From IMG/VR virus record IMGVR_UViG_3300025122_000066, positions 1 through 36,675 of that record: 36,675 nucleotides of DNA. The stretch is one strand, 5' to 3'. The notes under the pieces were generated by a model. It had not been told where the DNA came from, did not search any database, and saw only the letters and a program-made list of their open reading frames with translations. Positions 1,601 through 32,941 of the stretch are shown here, in pieces. How positions within the stretch are numbered: position 1 is the stretch's first letter; each line of letters opens with the position of its first letter. A program made the position numbers and the translations under genes. The stretch is from a virus.

Positions 1601-3432
1601 TGTCTATTGTACAAAAACTAACAGAAGGTATCATTAATCGTGACCTCTCAAGAGAGGGTGCTGCGCTCATTAATAAATGGGAGCAGACCGGACTACTTGA
1701 GGGACTCGACGGTGATCACCTTCGCAATGGCATGGCTTGTTTACTTGAAAATCAAGCCAAAGAGCTTCTTCGTGAGTCTTCCAGCATGGCTGCTGGCGAC
1801 GTCGAAGGCTTTGCTGCTGTTGCATTTCCCCTGGTTCGCCGAGTATTCGGCAACCTAATCGCTAACGATCTTGTTAGCGTTCAGCCTATGAGTTTGCCCT
1901 CTGGTCTGATCTTTTTCCTAGATTTCACGGTAAGTACGCAGTCTGCGGATCGCAATATTACCGAGTCCCGTCTGGGCTACAACCTCTCTGCATCGTTCTT
2001 CGGTGGCAATGTTGTTGGTAGTCAGATCACCGGTGGTGTCGATCTTTCGTCTCAGCTGGGTCGCGCCGGCGGTCCGTATAACCTAAATACAGGTTATGCA
2101 TCCCCGACTGGCTCACTAGCTTCTAGCTCTTGGAGCCCTTTGCTGATGCCTTCGGCATCTCGCGGCACCGCTATTTTCGGTTACGATCTGGGGCTCGACG
2201 CCGCTGTTGAGTTTGACGCGGATTTCACATCCGGCTCTACCCACGTAGGGGTCTTCAGCGTACTGCTTTCTGGTCTTGATCAGGTTAATTTGGACACCCC
2301 CGCGTCGTTCAATATTTCCTCTTCACAGGGAAATAGTATTCTTGGGGCAACTGCTAACGGCTCCCTCGCCGGCGCCGCCGGCGAAGCCGCCGCGCGTCTT
2401 ATTCGTCGTCATACCAAAATTTCTGGTTCTGGCGCCAAGACACGCTTACAGCTTGTTTTCGTGAGTACCGGTAGTAACGGTGCACTCTCGGGCGTAGGCT
2501 CTAATGGCGTGACCGCTGCGCAGTGGTCGAGTCTCGTTATTGGTGGTCTTACGTCTAGTGTTAACACGATTACGTGGGCTCAAACTGACGACTTTGCCAA
2601 CGGACCTGGACCCGATCGTATCGGTTCCGTCCGAGGTCAAGAGGTCTGGGGTCTTGAGGGTGCAACAAACATCCCCGAGATCGACATCAAGATTGATTCC
2701 GTGGCGATTACCGCTGTGACTAAGAAGCTCAAGGCTAAGTGGACCCCCGAGTTGGGACAGGATCTCAACGCGTACCACAACCTTGATGCCGAGGTCGAGC
2801 TAACTCAGATTCTGTCTGAGCAGATCGCACTTGAAATCGATCGTGAGATCCTTGCTGATCTTGTGAACGGTCAGACGGCTGCTACTCGTTACTGGTCGCG
2901 TGCTCCAGGTAAGTTCCTGGATCGTGTTACTGGTGTCGAAGTTGGTGCTTCTACGGTTGCTCCCGACTTCACTGGTAACATCAGTGAGTGGTATGAGAGC
3001 CTCATTGAGACAATCAATGATGTTTCTGCCCAGATCCACCGCAAGACTCTACGGGGTGGTGCCAACTTCATTGTCTGCGGACCTGAAGTTGCCAACATTC
3101 TTGAGTTTACCGCCGGTTTCCGTGCTAATGTTGCGGTCGATAGCGATCGCGGCGATGCCGGTACCGTTAAGGTGGGTTCGCTCTCTAAGAAGTTTGATAT
3201 CTATGTTGATCCTTACTTCTTACGGAACGTTGTTCTGGTCGGACGTAAGGGAGGCAGCTTCCTTGAGTCCGGGTACGTCTATGCGCCTTATGTGCCGCTA
3301 CAGACTACCCCCACTATCTTTGGACCCGAAGACTTCGTGCCCCGCAAGGGCGTGATGACTCGCTATGCCAAGAAGATGGTGCGTCCTGACTTGTATGGCT
3401 TGGTTGTTATCTCTGATATGACTGTTGGCTAA
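1600..3432 (+). CDS. 23: major capsid protein (T4 gp23 family)
   Basis: A 610-residue HK97-fold major capsid protein of the T4 gp23 family; T4 gp23 is 521 residues. Diagnostic blocks are SVQPMSLPSGLIFFLDF near residue 92-108 (T4: GVQPM.SPTGQVFALR) and the region around KLKAKWTPELGQDLNAYHNL with the following helix ending IALEIDREILADL. The extra length lies mainly between these blocks (~residues 115-320), probably surface insertions. T4 gp23 loses an N-terminal propeptide at a Leu/Ile-x-Glu site; Leu57-Arg58-Glu59 is the best candidate here (inference). The codons favour a small subset, consistent with high expression. It has an excellent ribosome-binding site and its own terminator, so capsid transcript output is probably insulated from the neck genes. 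Confidence 0.97.
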   Translation: MSIVQKLTEGIINRDLSREGAALINKWEQTGLLEGLDGDHLRNGMACLLENQAKELLRESSSMAAGDVEGFAAVAFPLVRRVFGNLIANDLVSVQPMSLPSGLIFFLDFTVSTQSADRNITESRLGYNLSASFFGGNVVGSQITGGVDLSSQLGRAGGPYNLNTGYASPTGSLASSSWSPLLMPSASRGTAIFGYDLGLDAAVEFDADFTSGSTHVGVFSVLLSGLDQVNLDTPASFNISSSQGNSILGATANGSLAGAAGEAAARLIRRHTKISGSGAKTRLQLVFVSTGSNGALSGVGSNGVTAAQWSSLVIGGLTSSVNTITWAQTDDFANGPGPDRIGSVRGQEVWGLEGATNIPEIDIKIDSVAITAVTKKLKAKWTPELGQDLNAYHNLDAEVELTQILSEQIALEIDREILADLVNGQTAATRYWSRAPGKFLDRVTGVEVGASTVAPDFTGNISEWYESLIETINDVSAQIHRKTLRGGANFIVCGPEVANILEFTAGFRANVAVDSDRGDAGTVKVGSLSKKFDIYVDPYFLRNVVLVGRKGGSFLESGYVYAPYVPLQTTPTIFGPEDFVPRKGVMTRYAKKMVRPDLYGLVVISDMTVG

Positions 3433-21269: not shown

Positions 21270-22457
21270 TTGTTATTTCAGACCCTTGATGTTAAAAATC
21301 AATGTGTGGGCTATTACGTGAATGAGTCCTTCGTCTACGGGCACCCCATAACAGAGCTCACTCAGACGTGGGATTATTCTCCTTCACTACGCAACTTAGA
21401 TATAGATTATGCGCGCGTCTACTGCGGGGGTAAGACTCTGACGGACGTTTGCCCTCCGCAATATCAAAACATGTGGTCGGAAATTAAATCCCGGCTTGCA
21501 CGCTACTTAAAGGCGCTAGGGACAGCTAAAATTGATCTCGACGAGGTGTGCTTTTATGACCTTATACCAGAGCACTTTCTTTTTGAGTTTTGTGACATGA
21601 AAAACGAAATCACAAAATCTGTTTTTGCCAAAAAATCGCGCCCTCAAAATTACAGACTTTTTGCTAATATTCTCAAGTTTCTCGGAGATATTCGACAACA
21701 GCCATTAAATGTGAATATAGGTGCGATCAAACACAAGGGAGGCTCGATTGCGGGACGCAATTTCATCAATCGGCTACAGAAGGTGAGATGGGTGTGTGAT
21801 TATAACCCATGGGGGACCATTACTGGGCGTCTAGCGACAAATCCCAATTCTTTTCCGATTATGACAATGAACAAAGAATTTCGCGCTTGTCTGGAGCCTC
21901 ATCACGACTGGTTTGTGGAGCTTGATTATAACGCAGCTGAAGTTCGAACTCTGTTGGCTCTCTCGGGACAAGAGCAGCCGATGAATGATATTCACGAGTG
22001 GAATATGAAGAATATCTATACTGACGTTACGGACCGGGCTGTGGCAAAGCAAAAGATATTTGCATGGCTTTATTCGCGCCGAACCAATAAAAAAGCAGAG
22101 CAATTTTATAGCAAAGAATTGGTGCTTCAAAAATACTGGAAATCAGGCACAATATTAACTGAATTTGATCGGTGCATTGAAAATGTTGACGATCATCACG
22201 CATTGAATTATATTATCCAAAGCACCACCAGCGATTTGGTCCTATCTAGGGCGATAGAGATCAACGAACGATTGAGAAACCTGGGCACCAACATAGCCTT
22301 TACGCTGCATGATTCGATCGTTCTTGATTTGAAGAACGAGGATCGTTACATTCTTCCGGAATTGATTAGGATTTTTGAAAATACCAAATTTGGAGAGTAT
22401 AAAGTGAATATTTCTGCCGGCAAAAATTTTGGCAATATGAAGAGGATGAATCTATGA
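21270..22457 (+). CDS. short family-A DNA polymerase without exonuclease domain
   Basis: A 395-residue protein with a TTG start at 21270 behind GGAGG (21261-21265). The polymerase core is intact by motif: TGRLATNPNSF (~185-195, as TGRLSS in Pol I), motif A D219-YNAAE-224 (Pol I DYSQIE), an O-helix R256/K260/F264/Y268 at exactly the Pol I spacing (R754/K758/F762/Y766), QSTTSD (318-322; Pol I QGTAAD), and motif C LHDS with D348. Motifs A and C are 129 residues apart versus 177 in E. coli Pol I, so the fingers are trimmed. The ~170 N-terminal residues are too short for a 3'-5' exonuclease plus thumb, and none is visible. It could be a repair, primer-processing or lesion polymerase. It overlaps the next gene by ATGA. 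Confidence 0.85.
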   Translation: MLFQTLDVKNQCVGYYVNESFVYGHPITELTQTWDYSPSLRNLDIDYARVYCGGKTLTDVCPPQYQNMWSEIKSRLARYLKALGTAKIDLDEVCFYDLIPEHFLFEFCDMKNEITKSVFAKKSRPQNYRLFANILKFLGDIRQQPLNVNIGAIKHKGGSIAGRNFINRLQKVRWVCDYNPWGTITGRLATNPNSFPIMTMNKEFRACLEPHHDWFVELDYNAAEVRTLLALSGQEQPMNDIHEWNMKNIYTDVTDRAVAKQKIFAWLYSRRTNKKAEQFYSKELVLQKYWKSGTILTEFDRCIENVDDHHALNYIIQSTTSDLVLSRAIEINERLRNLGTNIAFTLHDSIVLDLKNEDRYILPELIRIFENTKFGEYKVNISAGKNFGNMKRMNL

Positions 22458-23311
22458 ACGTTATTGGGCTCGGTCGCGCCGGGTGTGCCATAGCAGACCG
22501 CTTCTCAAAATTTCCCCAATATCAAATTTATAAGTTTGACGTTGGAGTAAAGGGTGAAAACTGTTTTCATATTACAAAACGATCAACTCATGAGGAATAT
22601 GAAAAGAATTTTCCCAGCCTAAAAAGAAAACTGAAGGGGATTAAGGGAGAGACTTTATTTATTCTCAGCGGCGCCGGAGACATCAGCGGAGGTGCGCTGC
22701 GGTTGCTGGCGCAGCTGGAAAATGTTAAGGTTAGTGTTCTCTACATCGAGCCTGATTTGTCACTTCTCAGCGAAGTAGAACAGACACAAGAAAAAATAGT
22801 TAAAAATGTCTTTCAGGAATATGCGCGCTCTGGACGGTTCGAGAGAATATATTTAGTTTCCAATCAGGCGATCGAAGAGTGTGTAGGAGAGGTGCCCATT
22901 ATTGAGTATTATGAAACGCTAAATCAGGCGATTGTTAACACATTTCACATGAGCAGTGTATTCGCCAACACTGAGCCGATTCTGGGCACTTTCTCGCAAC
23001 CAGCTGAAATTGCTAGAATTTCAACCATTGGGGTGGTGGACGTTGAAAAAAATGAAGAAAAGTGGTTTTATCCCTTGCGTTCTCCGAGGGATGTGGTATA
23101 CTACTATGGTATAAGTGAAGATGACCTAAAAACGGACAGCACTTTGTTTAAAAAGATTACAAGCTATATTAAGGGAATGGCAATTGATAAAGTAAACATC
23201 TCGTATGGAGTTTACAAAACAAGCTATGAACAGAAATATTGTTATTGCATTAAACATTCGTCTGTGGTACAATCTTACTTAGATGAAATAGACGATCAGG
23301 ATATTGGCTGA
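22454..23311 (+). CDS. tubulin/FtsZ-superfamily-like protein
   Basis: A 285-residue protein translationally coupled (ATGA overlap) to the polymerase gene. The N-terminus MNVIGLGRAGCAIADRF matches the first strand and Gly-rich T1 loop of tubulin/FtsZ GTPases. LFILSGAGDISGGALRLL (~68-85) matches the position and form of the T4 signature loop (GGGTGSG) but is degenerate. LEN-VKVSVLYIEPD and the helix up to FQEYARSG then correspond to the next strand and helix. A clear T7 catalytic loop (NxDxxD/E) is not visible in the C-terminal half, so polymerisation-driven hydrolysis may be lost. Similar proteins occur, to my recollection, in cyanophages as hypotheticals. It could position replicating DNA or be a non-polymerising regulator. 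Confidence 0.6.
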   Translation: MNVIGLGRAGCAIADRFSKFPQYQIYKFDVGVKGENCFHITKRSTHEEYEKNFPSLKRKLKGIKGETLFILSGAGDISGGALRLLAQLENVKVSVLYIEPDLSLLSEVEQTQEKIVKNVFQEYARSGRFERIYLVSNQAIEECVGEVPIIEYYETLNQAIVNTFHMSSVFANTEPILGTFSQPAEIARISTIGVVDVEKNEEKWFYPLRSPRDVVYYYGISEDDLKTDSTLFKKITSYIKGMAIDKVNISYGVYKTSYEQKYCYCIKHSSVVQSYLDEIDDQDIG

Positions 23312-23328
23312 TCGTACTTTAACCCAAT
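23292..23328 (+). promoter_or_regulatory. H-type RNA pseudoknot, candidate gp32 translational operator
   Basis: Stem 1 is ACGATCAG (23292-23299) with CTGATCGT (23308-23315), eight perfect pairs. Within its loop, ATTGG (23303-23307) pairs with CCAAT (23324-23328), giving a five-pair stem 2, a 3-base loop 1 and an 8-base loop 3, which is sterically standard. The stop codon of the upstream gene lies in stem 1. The structure ends two bases before the AAGGA ribosome-binding site (23331-23335) of the gp32 gene. T4 gp32 represses its own mRNA by nucleating on a pseudoknot upstream of an unstructured A/U-rich leader, as seen here. Confidence 0.7.
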
Positions 23329-23342
23329 GAAAGGAAAATAAA

Positions 23343-24134
23343 ATGGGTATTGATGTAGACAAGATGCGAGCAAAGCTCGCTAACGTTCGCGGCGAAGGCG
23401 GCGATAAGGACACCTTCTGGCGTCCTAGTGATGGGGAACAAAGCATTCGAATTGTTCCCACGGCTGATGGAGACCCCTTCAAGGAGAAGTGGTTTCACTA
23501 TAACCTGGGCACTAACCCGGGATTTTTATGTCCCAAGCGCAATTTTGGTGAGGAGTGTCCCGTATGTGACTTTGCCTCCCAGCTCTGGCGTGAAGGAGTA
23601 GAGAACGATGACAATGAGAGCAAGAAGCTCGCTAAGAGTCTTTTTGTTCGAGCTCGATTCTTCTCCCCAGTCCTCGTCCGAGGCGATGAGGAGAAGGGGG
23701 TCCGTATCTGGGGATACGGGAAGATGGCATATGAGAACCTGCTCACGTTGGTATTGAATCCGGAATACGGCGACATTACCGATCCAGAGACGGGAACGGA
23801 TCTGACGATGATCTATGGTAAGCCTCCTGGGGCGAGCTTCCCGCAAACGAAGCTTACGCCTCGCCGTCGTAGTTCAGAGTTGTGCGAAGATATGACTCCT
23901 GACAAGTGTGCGGAGCTGTTGGATTCTATTCCCGAGTTTGATACGCTCTTTGAGCGCAAGACGACGAAGGATGTTACAGCGCTGCTGGACGCTTTTATTA
24001 ACGGGGGTCTAGACGATCCCGAGTCGGTATCTTCGGAGACTTCGAAGTATAACACCGACACCACCACTACAACCGCCACTGACGGTGAAACTAATGCTGT
24101 TGATGCTGCTTTCGCTGAACTAGGCGCCCTATAG
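23343..24134 (+). CDS. 32: single-stranded DNA-binding protein (T4 gp32-like)
   Basis: A 263-residue ssDNA-binding protein; T4 gp32 is 301. The zinc site is intact: H52, C63, C72 and C75 (H-x10-C-x8-C-x2-C; T4 H64/C77/C87/C90). The Lys/Arg-containing N-terminus (DVDKMRAKLANVRGEG) corresponds to the cooperative interaction region, followed by an FWRPSDGEQSIRIVP strand of the OB fold and a VRARFFSPVLVRG strand. The C-terminal ~45 residues are Thr/Asp/Glu-rich and acidic, matching the T4 tail that recruits replication partners. The gene lies directly behind the candidate pseudoknot operator, suggesting autogenous control. Confidence 0.95.
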   Translation: MGIDVDKMRAKLANVRGEGGDKDTFWRPSDGEQSIRIVPTADGDPFKEKWFHYNLGTNPGFLCPKRNFGEECPVCDFASQLWREGVENDDNESKKLAKSLFVRARFFSPVLVRGDEEKGVRIWGYGKMAYENLLTLVLNPEYGDITDPETGTDLTMIYGKPPGASFPQTKLTPRRRSSELCEDMTPDKCAELLDSIPEFDTLFERKTTKDVTALLDAFINGGLDDPESVSSETSKYNTDTTTTTATDGETNAVDAAFAELGAL

Positions 24135-32563: not shown

Positions 32564-32941
32564 ATGGCGTATTCAAAAAAAGTTTTAGATCATTTCGAAA
32601 ACCCACGTAACGTGGGATCTCTTGACAAAGAGGACTCTACCGTAGGTACTGGCATCGTGGGCGCCCCAGAGTGCGGCGATGTTATGCAACTACAAATTAA
32701 AGTAGATGGTTGTGGATGCATCCAGGACGCAAAGTTTAAAACTTTTGGGTGTGGATCCGCAATCGCCGCCTCTTCGCTTGCGACCGAGCGTCTGAAGGGG
32801 CTAACACTGAAAGAAGCTAACGACATTAAAAACACTGAAATTGTGGAAGAGCTTTCGTTGCCTCCCGTTAAGGTTCATTGTTCGGTCCTTGCAGAAGAGG
32901 CGATAAAAGCAGCAATTAAAGATTTGGAGAAAAAGAAATGA
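32564..32941 (+). CDS. iscU: IscU-type iron-sulfur cluster scaffold protein
   Basis: A 125-residue protein very similar to bacterial IscU. It starts MAYSKKVLDHFENPRNVGS and keeps every functional residue at E. coli numbering: C37, D39, C63, H105 and C106, plus the HscA-binding motif LPPVK (99-103). It lacks the NifU C-terminal domain. IscU builds [2Fe-2S] clusters with IscS and hands them on via HscA/HscB. Those partners are not present, so it would work with the host ISC machinery. Two extra cysteines, C50 and C52, occur in the turn after the second strand. It sits three bases after nrdJ and overlaps the next gene by ATGA. Confidence 0.95.
   Translation: MAYSKKVLDHFENPRNVGSLDKEDSTVGTGIVGAPECGDVMQLQIKVDGCGCIQDAKFKTFGCGSAIAASSLATERLKGLTLKEANDIKNTEIVEELSLPPVKVHCSVLAEEAIKAAIKDLEKKK

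Follow-up and report, generated by a model that had tools for sequence, protein, structure and literature searches.

A covarying leader hairpin of gp32 genes in uncultured T4-like phages, apparently distinct from the T4 pseudoknot operator

Introduction

Gene 32 of bacteriophage T4 is a textbook example of autocontrol, in which a replication protein regulates its own mRNA. In T4 and RB69, gp32 represses its own message from a structure in the leader (PMC535899, PMC3014915), an operator that combines a pseudoknot with an unstructured A+U-rich region (PMC535899, PMC3014915), and in the model for T4, the surplus of gp32 over single-stranded DNA binds the structured site and spreads across the unpaired stretch to the ribosome-binding site (PMC535899). 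What happens in relatives of T4 that lack the pseudoknot? RB49 shows none, autocontrol in diverse T4 relatives is considered to need study, and the control of gene 32 in relatives without a pseudoknot has been stated to be open (PMC3014915, PMC535899).

The gp32 leader described here raises the same question. A first-pass annotation had read it as an H-type pseudoknot operator like that of T4. Is this reading correct; and if not, what is the RNA in front of this gp32 gene, and what does it do? We report a strongly covarying, non-T4 leader RNA that accompanies gp32 across many uncultured T4-like phages, most of them marine. Our comparisons indicate that the element is a leader RNA of the gp32 gene and is not a member of the T4 pseudoknot operators, and our literature search found no description of a leader RNA of this kind. 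Leader-RNA control of gene 32 may reach far beyond the T-even phages, and the element lets one ask two things: is self-control universal and the RNA replaceable, and what does a DNA-binding protein presumed to be non-specific recognize? Because the loop is nearly invariant, mapping the recognition should be straightforward. If these leaders form a class of their own that is read by gp32, this RNA would represent a second, separately evolved solution to the self-control of a phage single-stranded-DNA-binding protein.

The locus and its genes

The window, i.e. the whole stretch of DNA analyzed, is an IMG/VR virus record of 36,675 bases, and its capsid protein is nearest to those of Flavobacterium phage immuto, Microcystis phage Mel-JY01, and Rhodothermus phage RM378. 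The features of the gp32 leader and its surroundings are as follows.

22454–23311, + strand: upstream ORF of 285 aa with a tubulin/FtsZ fold (AlphaFold2 pLDDT 90; Foldseek to FtsZ/TubZ, E 6e-13, probability 1.0)
23245–23273, + strand: candidate gp32 promoter, TTGCAT (23245–23250), 17 nt, TACAAT (23268–23273); 8/12 consensus matches, at the same place in window-clade relatives
23290–23291, + strand: conserved AG just 5′ of the hairpin, present in 78/83 leaders
23292–23299, + strand: 5′ arm of hairpin P1, ACGATCAG; 8 pairs, every one with compensatory changes
23300–23307, + strand: P1 loop, GATATTGG; family consensus R-A-N-A-U-U-N-R, length always 8 nt
23308–23315, + strand: 3′ arm of P1, CTGATCGT, with the TGA stop (23309–23311) of the upstream ORF; compensatory changes as for the 5′ arm
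23316–23326, + strand: conserved 3′ tail, ACTTTAACCCA; family ACUNUARCC, with ACCCA (23322–23326) as the proposed anti-start arm of P2
23324–23328, + strand: CCAAT, 3′ arm of the stem 2 of the first-pass annotation (proposed partner 23303–23307); unsupported, with bases shared with P2
23331–23335, + strand: AAGGA, Shine–Dalgarno sequence of gp32, by direct reading; the P2 loop would enclose it
23343–24134, + strand: gp32-like single-stranded-DNA-binding protein, 263 aa (Pfam PF08804, E 2.8e-13; PHROG 1192, E 1.6e-23)
23344–23348, + strand: UGGGU, proposed 3′ arm of P2 over the AUG and codon 2 of gp32, from cross-lineage complementarity and the predicted minimum-energy fold

The gene downstream of the leader had been called a gp32 homologue with an intact zinc site. 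The Pfam match confirms the homologue, and the zinc site is plausible: H52, C63, C72, and C75 are invariant across 14 relatives, and H52 aligns with T4 His64, which we take to be a zinc ligand. A profile of the protein found no match among PDB sequences at E up to 1, and the assignment of its zinc ligands therefore rests on alignment. No gp32 of at least 60% identity is present in the annotated phage collection, where the best matches reach ∼29–33%.

The upstream protein has no Pfam match of its own, and the tubulin-like nature proposed for it is borne out by the predicted structure and its Foldseek matches. In most relatives, a tubulin-like gene likewise precedes gp32, making the two a conserved pair. 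The genes for gp32, the tubulin-like protein, and recA and the leader hairpin occur together in a 2.8-Mb chromosome labeled candidate division WOR-3 (L159, CP070664.1:2248072-2252836), which is either a prophage or phage sequence assembled into a MAG. Elsewhere in the window, at 32564–32941, lies a phage-borne NifU/IscU N-terminal protein, an iron–sulfur cluster scaffold (Pfam NifU_N, E 3e-49), and the gene adjoining it is, as judged by eye, ribonucleotide reductase-like.

The stop codon of the upstream gene had been noted to lie inside stem 1. This is so in the window, and the arrangement is confined to the window's clade, the only one in which the tubulin-like ORF overlaps the hairpin. Translational coupling of the tubulin-like gene to the gp32 leader could thus operate only within that clade, because elsewhere the hairpin sits in non-coding sequence, mostly behind a promoter of its own.

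A covarying hairpin in gp32 leaders

Is the hairpin more than a chance fold? Stems of 8 bp with loops of 3–10 nt number 12 in the window versus 2–8 in base-shuffled windows, and because an 8-bp stem alone is unremarkable there, comparison with relatives was needed; the window leader does fold better than its shuffles (z −3.1). Protein searches retrieved gp32 loci on viral contigs (39 and 80), together with one close relative in a WOR-3 MAG. Nearly all of these loci share the leader feature, which consists of AG, an 8-nt arm, the 8-nt loop RANAUUNR, a second 8-nt arm, and ACUNUARCC, with stem letters that vary, and 73 leaders align gap-free across 46 columns. In unforced counts over 83 leaders, A2 of the loop is kept in 81, A4 in 82, U5 in 77, and U6 in 82; among 91 distinct hairpins, a set gathered with the loop pattern, the counts are 89/91, 91/91, 85/91, and 91/91, respectively. 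The AG at 23290–23291 may extend the helix by pairing with CU at 23317–23318 (A 23316 bulged), a pair of positions so nearly invariant that covariation is uninformative.

The first-pass annotation had the letters and coordinates of its stem 1 right (8 bp, 23292–23299/23308–23315), and covariation supports this stem strongly, with compensatory changes in all eight pairs and changes on both sides of each. When the structure is scored as 10 pairs, standard pairs fill 95.5% of cells versus 68.5% after shuffling, and cells with double changes number 222 versus 72, with 0/500 shuffles as good; sliding an arm as a control drops the paired cells to 21–54%. RNAalifold recovers the P1 stem unaided. Additionally, when changes are mapped by parsimony onto the gp32 protein tree, 85 double changes convert one standard pair into another, versus 3–5 when an arm is slid by 1–2 columns. 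On these comparative grounds, we conclude that stem 1 is real and conserved across the gp32 leaders of diverse uncultured T4-like phages.

An inverted repeat beside a promoter might also be a DNA-level element, such as a repressor operator or a replication origin, but here the stem letters vary freely with compensation, the conserved letters are those of an asymmetric loop, and the site is downstream of the predicted +1. The inner six pairs, read on the sense strand, include 26 G-U versus 1 A-C, and this imbalance therefore points to P1 acting as a sense-strand RNA and not as DNA or antisense RNA. Taken with these observations, a DNA-level function is exceedingly improbable.

The hairpin is missing in the gp32 lineages L111, L121, L123, L130, L149, L157, and L160, and therefore is dispensable there. 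Three of these (L111, L123, and L130, from one gp32 clade) retain the promoter, have lost the hairpin, and have a short leader, providing natural cases of loss. In other leaders (L099, L104, L108, L131, L139, L151, and L153), a further small hairpin, e.g. GGCAAAAGCC and GGGTAATTAACCC, separates P1 from the ribosome-binding site, and in some of them the anti-start letters lie within its 3′ arm. The first 39 leaders suggested by eye that loop position 7 pairs with the variable N of ACUNUA, an idea that we discarded because later leaders break it.

Linkage to gp32

Which genes carry the element? Three DNA patterns, blind to protein, were run over the viral collection, whose matching contigs partly overlap the protein-found ones, and gp32 is the directly next gene in 117/120 hits; two of the remaining three are on truncated contigs, and in the third (L307), a small ORF intervenes before gp32. 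The two later patterns left the outer arm positions free, and 444/448 of those positions pair. A covariance model (R1) was also run over 40 whole records of up to 193 kb, comprising 39 virus records and the WOR-3 MAG. It finds one copy in 36 of the virus records, two copies in two, none in one (L144, which has a degenerate hairpin), and one copy in the MAG. The copies are always at gp32 or at the gene preceding gp32, and the single copy of the window scores 54.7 bits. Across the collections searched, P1 with its fixed loop is thus shown to be linked near-exclusively to gp32, and such a pattern would not be expected for a general mRNA stabilizer or a phage-wide signal.

In L040 (289-2025) and L042 (around 3090-3134, − strand), the second copy precedes an ORF of ∼580 aa that is the gene immediately before gp32, and the L040 protein matches HATPase_c_3. 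These elements have no evident P2, and their placement suggests either a two-gene regulon or a duplication.

The main rivals to autogenous control are mRNA stabilization, considered below, and another RNA-binding protein. If the leader is a translational operator for a protein other than gp32, then the loop would be read by some other phage repressor or by an RNA-binding protein of the host, and the invariance of the loop implies that specific letters are recognized; binding by gp32-type proteins is mostly indifferent to sequence, and two phages bear the element also on the gene upstream of gp32. Near-exclusive linkage to gp32 is, however, what autogenous control predicts, and two candidates are unlikely readers. 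The GGA core needed for CsrA is not conserved (a CsrA/RsmA-type GGA in the loop is found only where the closing pair is G-C and is missing in L090 and L099, among others), and a gp43-type polymerase is at odds with the family A polymerase of the window. We consider an operator for a different protein to be improbable.

Promoters and the 5′ end of the mRNA

Where would this RNA begin? Most lineages outside the window's clade have TTGACA-17-TATAAT-like boxes with a −10 box that ends 6–7 nt before the AG of the hairpin, a spacing found in 43/52 leaders with strong sigma70-like promoters. The RNA is therefore predicted to start with the hairpin; in other words, the start of the hairpin usually coincides with the +1 predicted from a sigma70-like promoter. 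In the window's clade, the promoter boxes lie within the upstream gene, and a transcript from the candidate promoter of the window would carry ∼9 extra nt ahead of the hairpin. The T4 gene 32 message is cleaved by RNase E at −71, and its pseudoknot region starts near −67 (PMC3014915); a structured 5′ end of the functional mRNA thus seems common to both systems.

A hairpin that starts at the predicted +1 could also serve as a 5′-terminal stabilizer, shielding the end from pyrophosphohydrolase and RNase E and giving a long-lived gp32 mRNA with no dedicated repressor. T4 offers a parallel: no T4 message is more stable than that of gene 32, whose 5′ end as processed by RNase E (−71) immediately precedes the pseudoknot (PMC3014915). 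A plain stabilizer, however, has no need of an invariant 8-nt loop and leaves the P2 signal unexplained, and it would be expected on other mRNAs as well, whereas nearly all genomes contain just one copy. Stabilization as the sole function is, in our view, unlikely.

The proposed pseudoknot

Does a second helix turn P1 into a T4-type operator? The proposed stem 2 joins ATTGG (23303–23307) to CCAAT (23324–23328), with loops GAT and ACTTTAAC, ahead of AAGGA (23331–23335). These letters and positions are right, and the window contains a single pseudoknot of that kind, compared with none across 5 shuffles. The ATTGG/CCAAT pairing exists, however, in the window and its close relatives only (L001–L004), and within the window's clade a G-to-A change at loop position 7 breaks a stem 2 pair in L024, L025, and L101. 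In the family-wide alignment, 55% of stem 2 cells pair, mostly at A/U-rich positions; across 83 leaders, complementarity between the loop and the downstream sequence is 8.35 versus 8.46 when shuffled, with 3/83 leaders below p 0.05; and in some leaders, the ribosome-binding site lies immediately behind the hairpin. Another pairing that we considered, TTTGC/GCAAA in the GGTCGG clade, is at chance.

The topology also differs. According to our own reading of the T4 and RB69 leaders, each has a 7-bp hairpin whose loop appears to pair, on its 5′ side, with the upstream flank, whereas P1 at a predicted +1 leaves no upstream arm for pairing of the T4 type. Because stem 2 fails covariation, a second helix being at chance across the family, the proposal of a conserved mechanism with divergent RNA is not supported. 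An H-type pseudoknot operator formed by stem 1 and ATTGG/CCAAT is very unlikely, and on this evidence the window RNA is not a T4-type pseudoknot. From the original idea of T4-like leader control, a structured leader RNA dedicated to gp32 survives and the pseudoknot does not. The 3′ arm assigned to stem 2 appears better explained as an anti-start-codon arm.

An anti-start tail

In the predicted fold of the window leader, ACCCA (23322–23326) pairs with UGGGU (23344–23348), covering the AUG. The tail tracks codon 2 across lineages: ACCC is found with AUGGGU, AGCC with AUGGCU, AUAGGCA with AUGUCUAU, and AUAGCUA with AUGGCUAU. Complementarity of tails to their own starts is 9.07 versus 7.59 to the starts of other lineages (z 3.4 for 22 lineages, thinned at 70% gp32 identity), with z 4.1 for 39 lineages at 80% thinning and a median z near 3 (2.1–4.6) over 20 random thinnings, where the test shuffles partners among lineages over 15 offsets and the thinning lessens shared ancestry without eliminating it. 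The signal is confined to the surroundings of the AUG, with nothing comparable in windows placed deeper in the coding sequence. P2 is clear in only 20/39 lineages and is absent where the spacer is too short; we consider this anti-start helix probable and moderately supported.

A model for control and comparison with known systems

What might the leader do? The reading that we favor, and consider reasonably probable, is that P1 and the P2 tail together make up a cis-acting RNA, conserved across these phages, that lies at or close to the 5′ terminus of gp32 mRNA and serves translational control, probably autogenous. Translational control of gp32 is the most likely role, gp32 itself would be the ligand of P1 by analogy with T4, and autogenous binding is plausible on the same analogy. 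In this scheme, gp32 exceeding the available single-stranded DNA would bind P1 and then spread over, or stabilize, the tail and start region, an occupancy that would block initiation of gp32 translation; the tail would pair with the gp32 start region (P2), with the ribosome-binding site placed inside the loop thus closed. The T4 spreading model fits here because the spacer between hairpin and gp32 is A-rich (53% A, 16% T) and mostly unpaired (mean unpaired probability 0.76), as would suit a site for gp32 spreading. No one uniform steric mechanism is evident from the leaders, because the hairpin-to-AUG distance ranges from 15 to 52 nt, and P2 could bring the AUG beside P1 whatever the linear distance. 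A bolder form of the model, which we put forward tentatively, is that these leaders constitute a new kind of regulatory RNA, separate from the T4 pseudoknot: gp32 reads a 5′-terminal hairpin with an invariant octaloop, the tail clamps the start codon, and hairpin and AUG are brought together across the 15–52 nt.

How does such an RNA compare with established leaders? In Rfam release 15, the window has no match at the gathering score and only chance-level matches with the E-value limit raised to 5 or 2. Like the T4/RB69 gene 32 operator, the element is a gp32 leader that has a structure at or near the functional 5′ end of the mRNA and then an A-rich unpaired stretch with the ribosome-binding site, and the 7–8-bp helix and 8–9-nt loop also resemble those of the T4 leader. 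Unlike that operator, it has no conserved pseudoknot, its near-invariant loop is different from that of T4, and it carries an anti-start tail and an A-rich spacer. The unstructured stretch of the T4-type operator has UUAAA/UAAA repeats over the ribosome-binding site; UUAAA repeats are not readily evident here.

The gene 43 operator of T4/RB69 is similar in being a single leader hairpin of a replication gene, bound by the gene's own product, with recognition carried by loop letters (PMC3014915); its core loop is -UAAC-, as opposed to RANAUUNR, and the gene here is gp32 in a phage with a family A polymerase. The working principle is also a familiar one in cells. Bacterial ribosomal proteins such as S15 and L10 gauge their free pools through their own leader RNAs and block initiation; the likeness is in principle, and no relation in sequence or structure is claimed.

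The gp32 leaders of S-PM2-type cyanophages share a promoter-proximal inverted repeat that directly follows a TTGAC-N-TATAAT-like promoter. Unlike the present family, their sequences and layouts vary by lineage, and the RANAUUNR loop and ACUNUARCC tail are absent; we rejected them as the same element, the covariance model finding nothing in S-PM2. The lineage-specific inverted repeats directly behind sigma70-like promoters in cyanophage leaders L184, L189, L196, L201, L203, and L229 are perhaps other independent solutions.
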